Shown here: positions 4,300 through 14,105 of the stretch, one piece after another | Numbering within the stretch: the first letter of the stretch is position 1 | How the letters are laid out: each line of letters opens with the position of its first letter | Assembly (NCBI RefSeq): GCF_007795095.1 | Contig: NZ_CP042218.1 | Location: forward strand, 1,240,001-1,304,000 | Direction: 5' to 3' | Length of the DNA: 64,000 bases | Origin: Luteimonas granuli | Lineage (GTDB): Bacteria > Pseudomonadota > Gammaproteobacteria > Xanthomonadales > Xanthomonadaceae | Position numbers and translations under genes: made by a program | Notes under the pieces: generated by a model | Database searches by the model: none | Told to the model about the DNA's origin: nothing | What the model saw: the letters and a program-made list of their open reading frames with translations, nothing else

Positions 4300-5775
4300 T
4301 CATGCCTGCTCGCGGACCAGGGAATCGTCCAGCCAGTGGGCGCCGAGGCTGCCGCGACGGTCACGGGCAGCGCGCAGGAGGGCAGCCGCCAGTTCCGCCT
4401 GCCATCCGGAAGACGCCAGATCGCCGGCTTCGGCCAGCGCCGCAGCCAGGCCAGCCGCCGTGCGCACCGGCCCGGCCGCAGCGGACAGCAGGTCGCTCAG
4501 GCGCACCAGGGCAGGCGCGTCGAGGTCCGGTCCGCGCAGCACCCGGCGCACCGCGCCGCCATCCACCGCCGCAGGCACGGACTGCGCCAGATGCGCGCCC
4601 AGCCGCCGCCCGAACACCACGCCCTCCAGCAGCGAATTGCTGGCGAGGCGGTTGGCCCCGTGCACGCCGGTGCAGGCGACCTCGCCCACCGCATGGAGCC
4701 CCGGAATGCTGCTGCGGCCCAGGGCGTCGGTGACGACCCCGCCCATGTGGAAATGGGCCGCGGGCGCCACCGGGATCGGCCTCGTCCGCGGGTCGATGCC
4801 GTAGGCCAGGCAGTGCGCCAGCACGGTGGGAAACGCGCGCTCCCAGTCGATACCGGGGCCGCGCGCGTCCAGGCGCACACCGCCGCCCTGGCGGCCCGCC
4901 TCCCATACCGCGCGTGCCACCACGTCGCGCGGAGCGAGGTCGCCCTGCGGATGCCGGCCGGCCATCAACGGCCGCCCGGTCGCATCCAGCAGCCGCGCCC
5001 CGGCGCCGCGCAGGGCTTCGGTCACCAGCGGCAGGGAATGGCCGGGGGCGTCGAGCGCGGTCGGATGGAACTGCACGAATTCGAGATCGGCCACGACGGC
5101 GCCGGCCGCCATCGCCAGCGCCAGCCCGGCGCCATCGGCGACCACTGGATTGGTGGTACGCGCGAACAGCGCGCCGATGCCCCCCGTGGCCAGGACCACG
5201 TCGGCGACTTCGATCCACTCGTCCACCGGCCCGGCGCCGTCGTCGTGCAGCGCGCGCAGGCAGGCAGCGGTGACGCGACCCCCGCGAAGCTCCAGGCCAT
5301 GCACGTCGACCCCGCCCCGCCAGTGGATATGCGACGCCCTGCGCGCCGCCTCCCCCAGCGCCGCGACCATGCGCGCGCCGCTGGCATCACCGCCCGCGTG
5401 GACCACGCGGGCACAGCGGTGTCCGCCTTCGCGCGCCAGGCGCAGCGTCCGGCCCCGGCGGTCGAAGGCCACGCCCTGCGCCTCCAGCCACGCCACCGCG
5501 TCGGCCGCGGCGCCGGCCAGCAGCCGCACGCGCGCGTGGTCGTTGTGCCAGGCGCCGGCGGCCAGGGTGTCCTCGACGTGCGCGGCCACGCTGTCATCCG
5601 CGGCCAGCGCGGCGGCGATGCCGCCCTGGGCAAGCACGCTGGCGCTGTCCTCCGCCTGCCGGCCGCGGCCGACCAGCAGTACCGGGCGCGGCGCCGCCGC
5701 CAGGGCCGTACACAGCCCGGCGACGCCGCTGCCGACCACAAGCACCGGCGCACCGCCAGCGGAACCGCCGTGCAT
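4300..5775 (-). CDS. nadB: L-aspartate oxidase NadB
   Basis: Flavoprotein that oxidises L-aspartate to iminoaspartate, the first step of de novo NAD synthesis. It can use fumarate as well as O2 as acceptor. The 491-residue product has the FAD-binding GSGVAG near residues 15-20, the succinate-dehydrogenase-like motif ASVLAQGGIAAAL, the active-site stretch LEFVQFHPTAL, and HMGGVVTDALGRSSIPGLHAVGEVACTGVHGANRLASNSLLE near the C-terminus (quoted here only as family hallmark). The ATG at 5775 overlaps the nadA stop by one base, so the two are translationally coupled. It is the last gene of aroQ-ubiT-nadA-nadB. Confidence 0.95.
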   Translation of the reverse strand: MHGGSAGGAPVLVVGSGVAGLCTALAAAPRPVLLVGRGRQAEDSASVLAQGGIAAALAADDSVAAHVEDTLAAGAWHNDHARVRLLAGAAADAVAWLEAQGVAFDRRGRTLRLAREGGHRCARVVHAGGDASGARMVAALGEAARRASHIHWRGGVDVHGLELRGGRVTAACLRALHDDGAGPVDEWIEVADVVLATGGIGALFARTTNPVVADGAGLALAMAAGAVVADLEFVQFHPTALDAPGHSLPLVTEALRGAGARLLDATGRPLMAGRHPQGDLAPRDVVARAVWEAGRQGGGVRLDARGPGIDWERAFPTVLAHCLAYGIDPRTRPIPVAPAAHFHMGGVVTDALGRSSIPGLHAVGEVACTGVHGANRLASNSLLEGVVFGRRLGAHLAQSVPAAVDGGAVRRVLRGPDLDAPALVRLSDLLSAAAGPVRTAAGLAAALAEAGDLASSGWQAELAAALLRAARDRRGSLGAHWLDDSLVREQA

Positions 5776-6812
5776 CAGACGCGTTCGCGCCGCCCCACGG
5801 CCAGCATCCGGTCGAGCGCGGCCCGCGCGCGCTCGATCACGTCCGGCGCGATGTGGATCTCGTGCCGCATGTCGCGGAGGCAGGCATGGATGTTCGGCAG
5901 GGTGATCCGCTTCATGTGCGGACACAGGTTGCAGGGCTTGATGAACTCGATTTCCGGGAACTGCCCGCGCAGGTTGTCGGCCATCGAGCACTCGGTGATC
6001 ATCGCCACCCGTCCGGGCCGCTCCTTCGCCAGCCAGCGCCCCATGGCGCTGGTCGAGCCGACGAAGTCGGCCTCGGCCAGCACCTCCGGCGGGCACTCCG
6101 GATGCGCCACCACCCTGGTGTCGAAGCGTTCGCGGGTGTGCCGCACCTGCTGTGCGGTGAAGGTCTCGTGCACCTCGCAGCTGCCGTTCCACAGGACCAG
6201 TTCGACCTCCGTCTGCGTCGCCACCCAGCTGCCGAGGTAGCGGTCGGGGAGGAAGATCACGCGATCGCTGCCGGTTTCCTCCGCGATCGCCTCGACCACC
6301 TGCACCGCGTTGGCCGAGGTGCAGCAGGCGTCGGATTCCGCCTTCACTTCGGCCGAGGTGTTGGCATAGCTCACCACCGGCACGCCGGGATGGGCGGCGC
6401 GCAGGGCGCGCACGTCGGCGGCGGTGATCGAGGACGCCAGCGAGCAGCCTGCCTCGAGGTCGGGCAGCAGCACCGTCTTGTGCGGCGCCAGGATCTTCGC
6501 GCTCTCGGCCATGAAGTGGACGCCGCAGAGCACGATCAGGTCGCTGTCGCAGTCGGCGGCGGCCTGGGCCAGCGCCAGTGAATCGCCGGTGATGTCGGCG
6601 ACGCCGTGGAAGATTTCCGGCGACTGGTAGCTGTGCGCCATGATCACCGCCCCGCGCTCCTTCTTCAGCGCGTTGATGGCATCGATCCACGGCAGGTGCA
6701 GCGGCACCTCCATGCAGGGGATCAGGCGTTCCAGCGTCTCCACCAGCGGTGCGTAGTCCTGCTCCAGGCCGTCGCGCCAGCGCGGGACGGCGGTCTCCGG
6801 CAGCGCGCTCAT
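5775..6812 (-). CDS. nadA: Quinolinate synthase NadA
   Basis: [4Fe-4S] enzyme that condenses iminoaspartate with dihydroxyacetone phosphate to give quinolinate. The product is 345 residues, as expected (347 in E. coli). The three cluster cysteines are recognisable in VLCGVHFMAE, NGSCEVHE and KPCNLCPHMK. Its ATG overlaps the ubiT stop as ATGA, and its stop touches the nadB start, indicating a tightly coupled operon. The iminoaspartate made by NadB is unstable, so adjacency of the two genes makes sense. Confidence 0.96.
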   Translation of the reverse strand: MSALPETAVPRWRDGLEQDYAPLVETLERLIPCMEVPLHLPWIDAINALKKERGAVIMAHSYQSPEIFHGVADITGDSLALAQAAADCDSDLIVLCGVHFMAESAKILAPHKTVLLPDLEAGCSLASSITAADVRALRAAHPGVPVVSYANTSAEVKAESDACCTSANAVQVVEAIAEETGSDRVIFLPDRYLGSWVATQTEVELVLWNGSCEVHETFTAQQVRHTRERFDTRVVAHPECPPEVLAEADFVGSTSAMGRWLAKERPGRVAMITECSMADNLRGQFPEIEFIKPCNLCPHMKRITLPNIHACLRDMRHEIHIAPDVIERARAALDRMLAVGRRERV

Positions 6813-7285
6813 GCCGCGGTTCCCAGGCCGAGGTGGGCGCTGCGGGCGGCACGCGCCAGCCTCGCGCCACGGTTGAGCCCGATGCGCAGGGCCAGCGGCA
6901 CTGCTTCCCACGGCAGGCGATCGAGCGTGTTGCGCGCGGTCAGGCCGAGCTCCACGTCGCCGGTCAGCACCAGGCGGCGCTGGAAGAACAGAGTGTCGGC
7001 GTCCTCCAGCCGGCCCGCGAGCAGCAGCAGGTCGGTGGCGGTGCCTCTCACGCTGGCCTCGGGTGTGCCATCGCCGGCATGCAGGCGGCCGTCGCGCAGC
7101 TCCACCACCCAGTGCAGATCGAGGTCGGTCACGTCGATGCCCAGCCGGCGTCCCTCCATGAAGTCGAGGCTGCCATCGGCGATCGGCGCGGCCAGCACCG
7201 CGGCCATGGCGCGCTCGAGCAGGCGCTGCTGCAGCCGGGGCGGCAGCGCGCGCAGCAGCGGCGCCCAGCGCCGGGGCGGAGGCAC
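6809..7285 (-). CDS. ubiT: SCP2-domain lipid-binding protein UbiT (O2-independent ubiquinone synthesis)
   Basis: UbiT works with UbiU-UbiV in anaerobic ubiquinone synthesis and is thought to bind isoprenoid intermediates through its SCP2 fold. The match to the family is clear: ERAMAAVLAAPIADGSLDF, RRLGIDVTDLDLHW and the hallmark DADTLFFQRRLVLTGDVELG. The start is uncertain. The GTG at 7285 gives 158 residues. The ATG at 7335 would give 175 residues, nearly the E. coli length, but it is out of frame by one base at the G6 run 7313-7318. With one extra G there, the upstream chorismate-mutase frame would read straight into UbiT as one fusion. ATGA overlap with nadA. Confidence 0.88.
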   Translation of the reverse strand: MPPPRRWAPLLRALPPRLQQRLLERAMAAVLAAPIADGSLDFMEGRRLGIDVTDLDLHWVVELRDGRLHAGDGTPEASVRGTATDLLLLAGRLEDADTLFFQRRLVLTGDVELGLTARNTLDRLPWEAVPLALRIGLNRGARLARAARSAHLGLGTAA

Positions 7286-7656
7286 GAGGCGCAGGAGCGT
7301 GGCGGCGGCCTCGGGGGGAGGTGGGGAATGTGCATGGCGTGCCTGCTTCCGATGGGCGGTGCGTGTGCTGCGGGGTCCGGATCCGGATCGATGCCCTGGG
7401 CGCGGCGGGCATCGGCGATGGCGAGGGCGGCGAGTCCGTCCGCGGTCGAGGCGGGCAGGCCGATGCGGCGGGCGACGGCCTCGACCCGGCGATGGACCCG
7501 GGCCTCGCGCTCGGGGTCCGCCAATGGACGCCCGGCGCGGACCTTGCAGCGCCCCGCGCGCACGGCCAGGCGCGCGCGCGCGCCGAGCAGCAGCACCAGC
7601 GCGTGGTCGATCCCGCCGATCGCCAGGCGCATGCGCGCCAGCGAACCGTCCGCCAT
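7129..7656 (-). CDS. AroQ-type chorismate mutase domain protein
   Basis: The first 90 residues align without gaps to E. coli AroQ chorismate mutase, offset by one: Arg10, Arg27, Lys38, Asp47, Arg50, Glu51 and Gln87 correspond to catalytic Arg11, Arg28, Lys39, Asp48, Arg51, Glu52 and Gln88. All active-site residues are therefore present. Expected activity is chorismate to prephenate, but the fold is also used by isochorismate-pyruvate lyases. The ATG at 7656 is chosen (a TTG lies 3 codons earlier). After about residue 107 the frame runs out of phase over ubiT to a stop at 7129; that tail is probably not native. It is first in the operon with ubiT-nadA-nadB. Confidence 0.72.
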   Translation of the reverse strand: MADGSLARMRLAIGGIDHALVLLLGARARLAVRAGRCKVRAGRPLADPEREARVHRRVEAVARRIGLPASTADGLAALAIADARRAQGIDPDPDPAAHAPPIGSRHAMHIPHLPPRPPPRSCASCLRPGAGRRCCARCRPGCSSACSSAPWPRCWPRRSPMAASTSWRDAGWAST

Positions 7657-7724
7657 CGTGTCCAAGCCGTCCCGAAGCTCCCTGGAGTCCGCCGCCAGCA
7701 GACCATCCGCGGCCCGGCGCGTCG

Positions 7725-7738
7725 CTGACCTGGATCAA
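7725..7738 (-). promoter_or_regulatory. FNR/ANR-like box upstream of aroQ-ubiT-nadAB
   Basis: Read on the minus strand it is TTGAT-ccag-GTCAG; the usual box is TTGA(T/C)-N4-(A/G)TCAA. One base deviates from the degenerate consensus. Its centre is 75 bp upstream of the aroQ ATG, which leaves room for a class II position (-41.5) and a short leader. A closely matching and better box precedes ubiU. Confidence 0.55.
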
Positions 7739-7824: not shown

Positions 7825-9306
7825 GTGGCCTTCCATGACCTGCGCTCGTTCCTGTCGCGACTGGAGCGCGACGGCCAGCTGCGGCGCGTCGCCGCGCCCG
7901 TCGATCCGGTGCTGGAGTCGACCGCGCTCTGCCTGCGCGCCCTTCGCGAAGGAGGCCCGGCGCTGCTGATGGAGCAGCCGGTGGGCGCCGGGCACGCCCT
8001 GCTGGGCAACCTGTTCGGCCACCGCACGCGCATCGAGGCCGCGCTGGCCGGGCGACCGCTGGCCTCGCTGCGCGAACTGGGCGAGCTGCTGGCCGCGATC
8101 AAGGAGCCGCGCTGGCCGTCGAGCCTGAAGCAGGCACTGTCGACCTGGCCGGAGCTGGCGCAGCTGGCCCTGGTCGCGCCACAGACCGTGCGCGAAGCGG
8201 AGTTCGACGACGAGGTGCTCGAAGGCGAGGACATCGACCTCTCGCGCCTGCCGATCCAGCACTGCTGGCCGGGCGACGCCGCACGTCTCATCACCCTGGG
8301 CCTGGTGGTCACCCGCGGCACCCGCAAGCCGCGCCAGAACATCGGCATCTACCGCATGCAGGTGATCGGCCGCGACCGCGTGATCATGCGCTGGCTGCCG
8401 CATCGCGGCGGCGCGCTGGACTTCGCCGACTGGTGCGCCGACCGCCCGGGAGAACCCTTCCCGGTGGTGGTGGCGATCGGGGTCGATCCCGCGACCACGC
8501 TGGCGGCGGTGGCGCCGGTGCCGGACACGCTGTCGGAGTACGAGTTCGCGGGCCTGCTGCGCGGCCAGCGCACGCGCATCTGGCGCAGCGAGCGCACCGG
8601 CCTGGACGCCCCGGCCGGCAGCGAGATCCTGATCGAAGGCGTGATCCATCCCGGCGAGACCGCGCTCGAGGGCCCCTTCGGCGACCACACCGGCTACTAC
8701 AACGCTGCAGCGCAGTTCCCGGTGCTCCGGATCGAACGCATGCGCCTGCGCCGCGACGCGATCTACCAGGGCAGCTACATGGGCCGCGCGCCCTTCGACG
8801 AACCCTCGGTGCTGGCGATGGCGCTCAACGACATCTTCGTGCCGATCCTGCGCAAGGTGTTCCCCGAGATCGTCGACTTCCACCTGCCGCCGGAGGCCTG
8901 CTCCTACCGCATCGCCGTGGTCTCGATCCGCAAGCAGTACCCCGGGCATGCGCGCCGGATCATGATGGCGGTCTGGTCCTACCTGCGGCAGTTCACCTAC
9001 ACCAAGTTCGTGATCGTCACCGACGACGACATCGACGTGCGCGACTGGTCGCAGGTGGTCTGGGCGGTGTCCACGCGCGTGGACCCGGCGCGCGACACCA
9101 TGCTGGTGGAGAACACGCCCATCGACTACCTGGACTTCGCCAGCCCGGTGGCGGGCGTGGGCTCGAAGCTCGGCATCGACGCCACCAACAAGCTGCCCGG
9201 CGAGACCAGCCGCGAGTGGAGCCGTCCGATCGTGCCGGATCCGGACGTGGAGCGGCGCGTGGATGCGCTGTGGGCCGGCGTGCTGGACACGGCGCGCCGA
9301 GCCTGA
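7825..9306 (+). CDS. ubiD: 4-hydroxy-3-polyprenylbenzoate decarboxylase UbiD
   Basis: prFMN-dependent decarboxylase that removes the carboxyl group of the octaprenyl-hydroxybenzoate intermediate in ubiquinone synthesis. At 493 residues it has the full UbiD length (497 in E. coli). Family hallmarks are seen: [13 protein letters not shown], the prFMN/metal-binding segment [28 protein letters not shown] and the [15 protein letters not shown] segment. The start is GTG with GGGGGA 9 bp upstream. It is divergent from aroQ-ubiT across about 170 bp and ends 6 bp from the convergent histidine kinase. The UbiX partner is not in the window. Confidence 0.95.
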
Positions 9307-12119: not shown

Positions 12120-12133
12120 TTGATCCAGGTCAA
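12120..12133 (+). promoter_or_regulatory. FNR/ANR box upstream of ubiUV
   Basis: TTGAT-CCAG-GTCAA fits the TTGA(T/C)-N4-(A/G)TCAA consensus perfectly. If centred at -41.5, the start point would be near 12168 and the -10 near 12156-12162 (GAGGAT, poor match), leaving a 22-nt leader before the ubiU ATG. In E. coli, ubiUV is under Fnr control, so the site is in the expected place. It could also act on the divergent cytochrome b561 gene. Confidence 0.75.
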
Positions 12134-12190
12134 GGACGCCGGCGCCGCGCGGCGGCGAGGATGCCCGTTCATCCCCGCGTGGAGCCTTGC

Positions 12191-13189
12191 ATGCAACTGG
12201 TCTGTCCCGCCGGCAATCTTCCGGCCCTGCAGGCGGCGGTCGACGCCGGCGCCGACGCGGTCTACGCCGGCCTGCGCGACCAGACCAACGCCCGCGCCTT
12301 CCCCGGGCTCAATTTCAGCGACGACGAGCTGCGCGCCGGCATCCGCTACGCGCATGCGAAGGGCGCGAAGGTCTACCTCGCGCTCAACACCTATCCGGAC
12401 AGCGCGCGCGTGGCGCAGTGGCACGCTGCGGTCGATACCGCCGCCGGCCTGGGTTGCGACGCGATCATCGCCGCCGAGATGTCGGTTCTCGACTACGCGG
12501 CGCGCACGCATCCCGGCATGCCGCGGCACCTCTCGGTGCAGGGCTCGGCGACCACCGCGCCCGCGCTGCAGTACGCCTTCGAGCGCTTCGGCATCAGCCG
12601 CGCGGTGCTGCCGCGGGTGCTCTCGATCCAGCAGGTCGAGCGTCTGTGCGAGCGCGCGCCGGTGGCGATCGAGGTCTTCGCCTTCGGCAGCCTGTGCATC
12701 ATGGTCGAGGGCCGCTGCCAGCTGTCGAGCTATGTCACCGGCGCCTCGCCCAACCGCCACGGCGTGTGCTCGCCGGCGAAGTTCGTGCGCTGGGACGAGT
12801 TCGACGACGGAAGCCGCACCGCGCGCCTGAACACCGTCCTGATCGACCGCTTCCAGCCGGCCGAACCCGCCGGCTATCCCACCGTGTGCAAGGGCCGCTT
12901 CGAAGTCGGCGGCGAGATCTTCCACGCGCTCGAGGAGCCGACCAGCCTCAACACGCTGGAGCTGCTGCCGCGGCTGGCGCAGGCCGGCGTGACCGCCCTG
13001 AAGATCGAGGGCCGGCAGCGCGGCGCGGCCTACGTGGCCTCGGTCACCCGCACCTGGCGCGCGGCGATCGACCGCCATCGCGCCGACCCGGGCGCCTGGA
13101 CGCTGCAGCAGCGCTGGCAGTCCGAGCTGTCAGCGCATGCCGAAGGCCACCAGACCACGCTCGGCCCCTACCACCGCGCCTGGCATTGA
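12191..13189 (+). CDS. ubiU: O2-independent ubiquinone hydroxylase component UbiU
   Basis: U32-family protein that with UbiV forms the heterodimer hydroxylating the ubiquinone ring without O2, using prephenate as oxygen donor. The 332-residue product is almost exactly the E. coli length (331). Cys169, Cys176, Cys193 and Cys233 correspond to the [4Fe-4S] ligands of E. coli UbiU (169, 176, 193, 232). Family segments include GLNFSDDELRAG, FAFGSLCIMVEGRCQLSSY and EEPTSLNTLELLP. The ATG at 12191 gives the canonical MQLVCPAGN start; an in-frame ATG 30 bp earlier adds a non-conserved extension. Confidence 0.96.
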   Translation: MQLVCPAGNLPALQAAVDAGADAVYAGLRDQTNARAFPGLNFSDDELRAGIRYAHAKGAKVYLALNTYPDSARVAQWHAAVDTAAGLGCDAIIAAEMSVLDYAARTHPGMPRHLSVQGSATTAPALQYAFERFGISRAVLPRVLSIQQVERLCERAPVAIEVFAFGSLCIMVEGRCQLSSYVTGASPNRHGVCSPAKFVRWDEFDDGSRTARLNTVLIDRFQPAEPAGYPTVCKGRFEVGGEIFHALEEPTSLNTLELLPRLAQAGVTALKIEGRQRGAAYVASVTRTWRAAIDRHRADPGAWTLQQRWQSELSAHAEGHQTTLGPYHRAWH

Positions 13190-13217: not shown

Positions 13218-14105
13218 ATGAAGCTGAGCCTCGGCCCGCTGCAGTATTTCTGGCCGCGCCAACGCACCCTGGACTTCTACCGCGACGTGGCCGCCTGGCC
13301 GGTGGATGTCGTCTACCTGGGCGAGACCGTGTGCAGCAAGCGCCGTGAACTGCGCACCATCGACTGGCTGAACCTGGCGGAAGAGATGGCAGCCGCCGGC
13401 AAGGAGGTGGTGCTGTCGAGCCTGGCCCTGATCGAGGCCGAGTCCGAGCTCGGCGTGCTGCAGCGCCAGGTCGAGCACGGCGGCTTCTGGCTCGAAGCCA
13501 ACGACCTGTCGGCGGTCCAGCTGTGCCGCCTCGCCGGCGTGCCTTTCGTCGCGGGTCCGACGCTGAACGTCTACAACCACCGCGCGCTGTCGATGCTGGT
13601 CGAGGACGGCCTGCGGCGCTGGGTGCCCGGCGTCGAGCAGGGTCGCCAGTTGATCGAGGAGCTGCGCGACGGAATGCACGCCGACGGCCACGCGATGCCG
13701 GAGCTGGAGGTGATCGCCTGGGGCCGGCTTCCGCTCTCGTTCTCGGCGCGCTGCTTCACCGCGCGCGCGCTCGACCTGCCCAAGGACCAGTGCGGCTTCC
13801 GCTGCATCGACTATCCCGACGGCATGCCCCTGGCCACCCGCGAGGGGCGCCCCTTCCTGCGCATCAACGGCATCCAGGTGCAGGGCGAGGAAACCACCGA
13901 CCTCGGCCCGGAGCTGCCGGCACTGGCGGCGCTGGGCGTCGATCTGCTGCGGATCTATCCGCAGGCCGAGGGCACGCGCGAGATCGTCGAGCGCTTCGAC
14001 GCCGCACGGGCTGCCGACGCGCCGCTGGCGCCGATGGGTGCGCGCAATGGCTACTGGCAGGGCGAGGCGGGGATGACGCTGACGGGGCACGGCGCCGGCG
14101 GCTGA
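13218..14105 (+). CDS. ubiV: O2-independent ubiquinone hydroxylase component UbiV
   Basis: Partner of UbiU. The 295-residue U32-family protein has Cys39, Cys179, Cys192 and Cys196, matching the E. coli UbiV [4Fe-4S] ligands (39, 180, 193, 197). Family segments: LGPLQYFWPR near the start, LGETVCSKRRE and WGRLPLSFSARCFTAR. The start with AAAGGAA ribosome site lies 28 bp after the ubiU stop, so the two form an operon. It ends at an inverted-repeat region that separates it from the convergent efflux operon. Confidence 0.96.
   Translation: MKLSLGPLQYFWPRQRTLDFYRDVAAWPVDVVYLGETVCSKRRELRTIDWLNLAEEMAAAGKEVVLSSLALIEAESELGVLQRQVEHGGFWLEANDLSAVQLCRLAGVPFVAGPTLNVYNHRALSMLVEDGLRRWVPGVEQGRQLIEELRDGMHADGHAMPELEVIAWGRLPLSFSARCFTARALDLPKDQCGFRCIDYPDGMPLATREGRPFLRINGIQVQGEETTDLGPELPALAALGVDLLRIYPQAEGTREIVERFDAARAADAPLAPMGARNGYWQGEAGMTLTGHGAGG

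Follow-up and report, generated by a model that had tools for sequence, protein, structure and literature searches.

Why should a chorismate-mutase domain of the AroQ type lie directly before UbiT, a protein of anaerobic ubiquinone synthesis, in Luteimonas granuli? The locus lies in a stretch of 64,000 nucleotides of this genome (assembly GCF_007795095.1, contig NZ_CP042218.1, positions 1,240,001 to 1,304,000), hereafter the window, to which all positions refer unless another locus is named. UbiU and UbiV hydroxylate the ubiquinone ring without O2, with UbiT, an SCP2 protein, as a likely accessory factor (PMC6747719). That this hydroxylation uses prephenate, as an initial annotation of the locus had assumed, is reported in a review that names prephenate as the oxygen source and cites a 2024 PNAS paper (PMC11574389); according to the same review, direct evidence for the U32 oxidases as catalysts is still to be shown. 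The related U32 protein TrhP also requires prephenate (PMC6599085). We propose, with a probability of roughly 0.72, that the window holds a two-domain Lysobacterales AroQ-UbiT gene, broken in frame here by one base, which would serve as a dedicated prephenate supply for UbiU-UbiV. We favour this reading because of the recurrence of the fusion across the order, the constant presence of UbiU alongside it, the adjacency of unfused aroQ and ubiT in five other families, and the conserved active-site residues.

The gene occupies 7665-6809 on the minus strand, with UbiT directly after AroQ. The parts of the gene, compared where relevant with Luteimonas colneyensis (genome G018, fusion locus L051; the nearest relative among the genomes searched, with a UbiT 90% identical), are as follows.

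7384-7665, minus strand: AroQ chorismate-mutase domain, with a CM_2 (PF01817) match at 7629-7396.
7319-7383, minus strand: linker, continuing the AroQ frame; that of L. colneyensis is 54 nt (18 codons) longer.
7313-7318, minus strand: C6 run (G6 on the plus strand), where the AroQ and UbiT frames part by one base.
6809-7312, minus strand: UbiT domain (SCP2), with an NCBIfam UbiT match at about 7255-6905 and the stop codon TGA at 6811-6809.

The AroQ part scores 44.5 bits against Pfam CM_2 (curated cut-off 27), and the UbiT part 126.1 bits against the NCBIfam equivalog SCP2_dom_UbiT (NF047962; cut-off 46.9) and 54.8 bits against Pfam SCP2 (cut-off 21.3). The two domains thus lie where the initial annotation had put them. 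Its start codon for AroQ, ATG at 7656, is probably to be replaced by TTG at 7665, since L. colneyensis keeps the TTG and lacks the ATG. The genome encodes a second chorismate-mutase domain within a separate PheA-like protein, so the AroQ of AroQ-UbiT would be an additional mutase.

A query with UbiT alone over 61 genomes, L. granuli included, with matched loci taken together with about 1.5 kb on each side, found UbiT in ten. Five of these carry AroQ upstream in the same frame (G018, G049, G011, G024 and G057), L. granuli has the split arrangement, and four show no AroQ match in their loci. A profile built from the five fusions was then applied to a sample of 398 genomes from the order Lysobacterales (Xanthomonadales), scoring at most six candidates per genome and admitting matches to about E 2e-12; counts of UbiT alone are lower bounds. 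In at least 58 of the 398 genomes the match extended in one frame from AroQ through the whole of UbiT, and L. granuli was matched as two pieces. It is the sole case observed in which AroQ precedes UbiT in a different frame, 28 of 38 genomes with UbiT alone having been examined more closely. Four families hold fusions, the exceptions within them being G290, G349 and G219, which have UbiT alone, and G325, in which UbiT and an AroQ of the fusion type lie 35 kb apart.

Scanning genomes with the fusion profile yielded 80 loci (the best of 187) which, with five fetched regions, made 85; a few genomes are held twice, and the 82 distinct fusion proteins derived from them are related rather than independent. 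Carriers among these best 80 of 187 loci include Luteimonas, Thermomonas, Lysobacter, Stenotrophomonas, Arenimonas, Pseudoxanthomonas, Dyella, Rhodanobacter, Frateuria and Dokdonella. At all 85 loci a single open frame runs through AroQ and UbiT, with no stop between them; eight further UbiT regions, examined together with these loci, lack an AroQ ahead of UbiT. Across the stretch shared by the two domains, 0 of 85 loci are open in the +1 frame and 10 in the +2 frame. The idea that the fusion is an artefact of GC-rich, stop-poor genomes was dropped, given how seldom the alternative frames are open.

The UbiT tree is poorly resolved, with long branches. Some stand-alone UbiT (G290, G349 and G219) fall among its fused rows, which suggests that AroQ has been lost in stand-alone lineages. 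Two of these, L134 (G349) and L136 (G219), lie inside the fusion clade, retain an FNR-type box before UbiT and have a related gene for a small cysteine-containing protein just upstream. One contig labelled Erythrobacter, an alphaproteobacterium, carries a fusion (L122) that groups tightly with the gammaproteobacterial ones; the contig is probably mis-binned. One genus encodes a fusion-type AroQ alone, at about 5106-5369 on the reverse strand of L133 (G047) and at 2188-2460 of L131 (G325). The lone AroQ of G047 adjoins a membrane-protein gene, a relative of which, cut short in frame, precedes the lone UbiT of G290 (L135).

In the window itself, the AroQ frame runs past the ubiT start and stays open up to 7129, with UbiT read one frame off. 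The absence of a stop before ubiT had been noted at the outset, together with the proposal that one extra base in the G6 run at 7313-7318 would restore a single fusion frame. L. colneyensis has exactly this: in the DNA alignment it carries one base more at the run and a single open frame. The only other indel between the two linkers is the 54-nt difference, which is in frame; protein comparison places the break at 7330-7342. As assembled, the window thus lacks one open frame holding both domains, which 58 genomes of the order possess, and its UbiT frame offers no start codon from a distant TTG (7738) as far as a GTG that lies 17 codons inside P0002. A single indel error and a recent mutation both fit the break. 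In the one genome pair compared, L. granuli and L. colneyensis, dN/dS is 0.20 over 91 codons of AroQ and 0.146 over 163 codons of UbiT, which points to selection on both parts until recently; any loss of the gene would therefore be recent.

The alternative that survives best is that the split is genuine: AroQ and UbiT may be made as separate proteins, the gene may have died recently, or ribosomes may slip at C CCC CCG, since the sequence CCCCCCG is built like a slippery heptamer. The assembly, moreover, is not generally poor: of 18 open reading frames picked by codon-position GC for comparison with L. colneyensis, 17 match in one frame and show no split, and the one flagged, an antisense frame across aroQ-ubiT, was set aside. 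The idea of an assembly full of indels was accordingly dropped. Against a genuine split stand the five relatives of the UbiT-only survey and the 58 genomes of the order survey, all of which read through unshifted, and the low dN/dS in both domains, which leaves time only for a recent loss. A homopolymer of six is, in addition, a frequent place for indel errors. We regard a genuine split as less likely than not, and a two-domain gene with a one-base break in this assembly as the better account.

Whether the AroQ domain could make prephenate was judged from its active site. The reference was the stretch of the E. coli mutase in 1ecm, which ends at residue 85, so that the column four places beyond S84 was read as Q88; R11, R28, K39, D48, R51, E52, Q88 and S84 are what we take to be the catalytic or active-site positions. 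The AroQ of the window has equivalents of R11, R28, K39, D48, R51, E52 and Q88, with numbering shifted by -1, and an alanine in place of Ser84. The statement in the initial annotation that every catalytic residue is retained holds for these seven and fails for Ser84. All 82 distinct fusion proteins have R11, R28, K39, R51 and E52, while 79 retain D48 and 81 retain Q88. At position 84, 73 of them carry alanine, 8 glycine and 1 serine.

The L. colneyensis fusion, modelled as a monomer with AlphaFold (mean pLDDT 87, 66 rows), comprises three AroQ helices (residues 3-89), a poorly ordered linker (about 90-136) and an SCP2 domain (137-296). In Foldseek, the AroQ part of the model aligned with chains A and B of 1ecm at TM-scores to target of 0.86 and 0.82 and rmsd of 1.2 and 1.1 Å, at E values of only 0.013 and 0.007; the three-helix AroQ fold is thus present in the model. 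The SCP2 part aligned with UbiJ (6h6p) at a TM-score to target of 0.73 (E 1.3e-5).

Instead of making prephenate, the AroQ fold might mediate dimerisation or sensing, or bind chorismate for another purpose, for instance pyruvate-lyase-like chemistry. AroQ enzymes are dimers, Ser84 is Ala in most of the fusions, and the unfused AroQ neighbours described below lack Q88, all of which would suit such a role. A mere scaffold would have no need, however, of five invariant active-site residues and a Q88 kept in all fusions except one, and we consider a module of this kind improbable beside a prephenate-making mutase.

UbiU and UbiV are both encoded in the window, on the strand opposite to aroQ-ubiT.

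7725-7738, minus strand: FNR/CRP-type box TTGATCCAGGTCAG 5' of the fusion, a sequence match identical in L. colneyensis.
7825-9306, plus strand: ubiD, divergent from aroQ-ubiT, from profile matches.
12161-13189, plus strand: ubiU (quinone_UbiU, 525.9 bits, cut-off 440), with the FNR-type box TTGATCCAGGTCAA 5' of it at 12120-12133.
13218-14105, plus strand: ubiV (quinone_UbiV, 350.6 bits, cut-off 275); the model begins near 13218 and the frame is open from 13137.

A UbiU survey at E 1e-60 or better, scoring at most five candidates per genome, found UbiU in 99 of the 398 order genomes. All 58 fusion genomes have it, and in this sample the fusion is never seen without UbiU. In 48 of the 58 the two genes share a contig, at 1.7-8.1 kb from start to start, and in the other 10 they are on separate contigs. 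Among the matches listed, 36 of 38 UbiT-alone genomes also have UbiU, and four UbiU genomes (G069, G252, G109 and G053) show no UbiT. Within Luteimonas, 33 of the other 36 genomes have no UbiT match; since nine same-genus genomes without a match also lack UbiU at 1e-60, the UbiT/UbiU pathway seems to have been gained and lost as a unit in this genus.

Outside the fusion set, UbiT regions of 3 to 20 kb were taken from 120 genomes and joined with eight earlier regions to give 128, of which 106 also show UbiU or UbiV. AroQ matched in five (G464, G572, G710, G604 and G657), always as a direct neighbour of ubiT and with ubiU and ubiV near; in the other 123, neither of the two profiles used matched an AroQ. 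The five genomes belong to five different families of the class, and the orientation varies, four aroQ being divergent from ubiT and one downstream on the same strand. No other AroQ match occurs in these five regions, and we estimate the chance of a random AroQ landing so near ubiT at several per cent each. All five unfused AroQ score above the CM_2 cut-off (54-67 bits) and keep the equivalents of R11, R28, K39, R51 and E52, as read by eye. The initial annotation had named an absence of AroQ from ubiT neighbourhoods elsewhere as something that would speak against its reading; AroQ is present in them, both fused (58 of 398 genomes) and as an unfused neighbour (5 of 128 regions).

These surveys bear on the simpler view that AroQ is an ordinary phenylalanine/tyrosine mutase attached to ubiT by chance and irrelevant to ubiquinone. 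CM_2 domains are indeed fused to other domains elsewhere, as in PheA of the same genome, and UbiT occurs without a fused AroQ in other lineages sampled. PheA is also present, however, the fusion follows UbiU throughout the sample, and the adjacency has arisen independently in five other families; a chance attachment is for these reasons slightly less credible even than a non-catalytic module, and a mutase dedicated to the UbiU-UbiV pathway remains the preferred reading.

The DNA of the linker adds a regulatory aspect. We searched for FNR/CRP-type boxes, TTGAY-N4-RTCAA with at most one mismatch, as sequence matches. Such a box lies in the linker of 59 of the 82 fusion genes, always in the same codon phase, compared with about 3% of same-width stretches elsewhere; the AroQ part holds one in 1 of 82 and the UbiT part in 0 of 82. 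The 240 nt upstream hold a box in 28 genes, so that 73 of 82 have one in either place and 9 in neither. The window, like L. colneyensis, has its boxes upstream of the whole gene, including a second, one-mismatch box just upstream of that at 7725-7738. Before unfused UbiT, boxes occur in about 160 nt before the UbiT match in 64 of the 128 regions (controls 3%). The ubiU box at 12120-12133 fits TTGAY-N4-RTCAA without mismatch and TTGAT-N4-ATCAA with one, its centre lying 34 nt before ubiU. A strict-consensus scan upstream of the fusion gave 8 of 81 at no more than one mismatch against 3% in controls, a weak enrichment; for ubiU, an initial scan of the upstream DNA found boxes in 9 of 30 at the same tolerance, two of them with faulty distances from truncated genes.

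Two trivial origins of the linker box were considered and dropped. Chance or base composition would not account for it: with permuted half-sites the median was 0 of 82, and of those permutations only two near-copies of the motif scored high (51 and 28), the next having 8; random half-sites reached at most 16. Nor does the box appear to be a by-product of linker amino acids, its third codon being GAT, GGT, AAT, CAT or CGT, always nnT, in rows that were selected by the box itself.

An in-frame ATG occurs in the linker of 81 of the 82 fusions, against 36 and 6 for the remaining two frames. Its distance to the centre of the box is mostly 46 or 43 nt. In class II FNR promoters the box sits at -41.5, and with this spacing transcription would start so close to the ATG as to give an almost leaderless UbiT message; a -10-like element was noted as a sequence match. 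Because unfused ubiT often carry a box upstream, the fusion seems to have taken in ubiT's own anaerobic promoter, and with the box in the linker, a single gene may have two products, AroQ-UbiT and free UbiT. That aroQ and ubiT are simply two separately translated genes sharing a frame by position, as the linker ATG and linker box might suggest, is the least credible alternative and very improbable, with no stop between the domains at any of the 85 loci (picked by the fusion profile, a few genomes twice), 58 genomes in frame to one seen out of frame, the other frames seldom open, and the linker indel against L. colneyensis itself in frame.

In the proposed mechanism, the AroQ domain would form prephenate from chorismate beside the lipid carrier UbiT. 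UbiU-UbiV, which UbiT serves, would thereby obtain their organic oxygen donor and need not compete for it with PheA and tyrosine synthesis. Most relatives would, in addition, make UbiT alone under anoxia from an FNR-type promoter within the linker. That AroQ is active, that its prephenate reaches UbiU-UbiV and, given the broken frame of the assembly, that the fusion product is made in this genome are inferences. With this qualification, the interpretation of the initial annotation, in which a mutase tied to UbiT would supply the oxygen donor, is supported. More tentatively, and with rather less than an even chance of being right, AroQ-UbiT could be a substrate-supply scaffold, in which prephenate is produced within the complex that offers the ubiquinone precursor to UbiU-UbiV and is handed over locally. 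An upstream promoter would then give AroQ-UbiT and the linker FNR-type promoter a nearly leaderless UbiT, with oxygen setting the ratio between the donor-making enzyme and the lipid carrier.

Several observations weigh against a dedicated prephenate supply and its regulatory extension. At least 38 genomes of the order have UbiT with no fused AroQ, so that AroQ is dispensable for the pathway generally; in the 28 of these 38 for which regions of up to 20 kb were scanned, aroQ is never found beside ubiT. In a sample of the class, 87 of 369 genomes were matched (E 1e-16), with single-frame fusions only in two, both of the same family as L. granuli; in a sample of the phylum, 51 of 398 were matched (1e-18), with fusions only in three, all of that family, and in neither sample does a match outside the order extend into AroQ. 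G047, which has the lone fusion-type AroQ, has no UbiU at 1e-60 and no UbiT among the matches listed. The five unfused AroQ lack an equivalent of Q88, and four of them that of D48 (read by eye), which makes their activity less sure. No more than 16 of 82 fusions have a Shine-Dalgarno-like stretch ahead of the linker ATG, which makes separate synthesis of UbiT less likely. In 45 of the 82 genes the only box found lies 3' of the AroQ coding part, in which case anoxia would raise UbiT and not AroQ. Lastly, the aroQ-ubiT frame is broken in the window itself.

The gene next to the fusion is nadA (quinolinate synthase, named from sequence; 5775-6812, minus strand), whose start overlaps the ubiT stop by 4 nt (ATGA, 6809-6812). 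nadA is present in 51 of 80 fusion loci, by position mostly as the next same-strand gene after aroQ-ubiT; in L. colneyensis it is not at the corresponding place.

Prephenate as oxygen donor is a recent claim whose chemistry is unexplained, and a conserved fusion together with repeated adjacency offers independent evolutionary evidence for it. The fusion suggests that the presumed donor is made at its site of use, and AroQ-UbiT provides a single protein for in vitro work on the reaction, on possible channelling and on complex assembly. In the parts of the literature searched, no chorismate mutase appears with UbiT or SCP2 in a ubiquinone context, nor with UbiU, although mention elsewhere, including in the 2024 PNAS paper, is possible; UbiT and AroQ occur together in one paper, on biocontrol by Pseudomonas. 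Both domains are known; as far as this literature extends, their architecture, its conservation across a large part of the order, the repeated adjacency and the putative embedded promoter are without description.

The system closest to that of L. granuli is the UbiT-UbiU-UbiV pathway (YhbT/U/V in E. coli), with which it shares the SCP2 domain, the company of UbiU and UbiV and the FNR-type boxes; the N-terminal chorismate mutase is the addition here, whereas the accessible text of PMC6747719 describes a ubiT-ubiU fusion in Zymomonas mobilis, with no mutase. In E. coli, ubiT has an aerobic promoter P1 and an FNR-controlled promoter P2 (PMC10470549). An FNR-type site shortly before ubiT is common to both, but in 59 of 82 Lysobacterales fusions it lies within coding sequence, between AroQ and UbiT, and the distal promoter is here only supposed. 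With the chorismate-mutase domain of E. coli PheA (1ecm), AroQ shares the three-helix fold, the active-site arginines, lysine and glutamate, and Q88; it differs in the change of S84 to Ala and in its partner, which is a lipid-carrier domain rather than prephenate dehydratase or dehydrogenase. We know of no mutase tied to TrhP/RlhA, though no search was aimed at one. These have in common with UbiU-UbiV the U32 family and a prephenate-dependent hydroxylation, but their substrate is RNA (PMC6599085).

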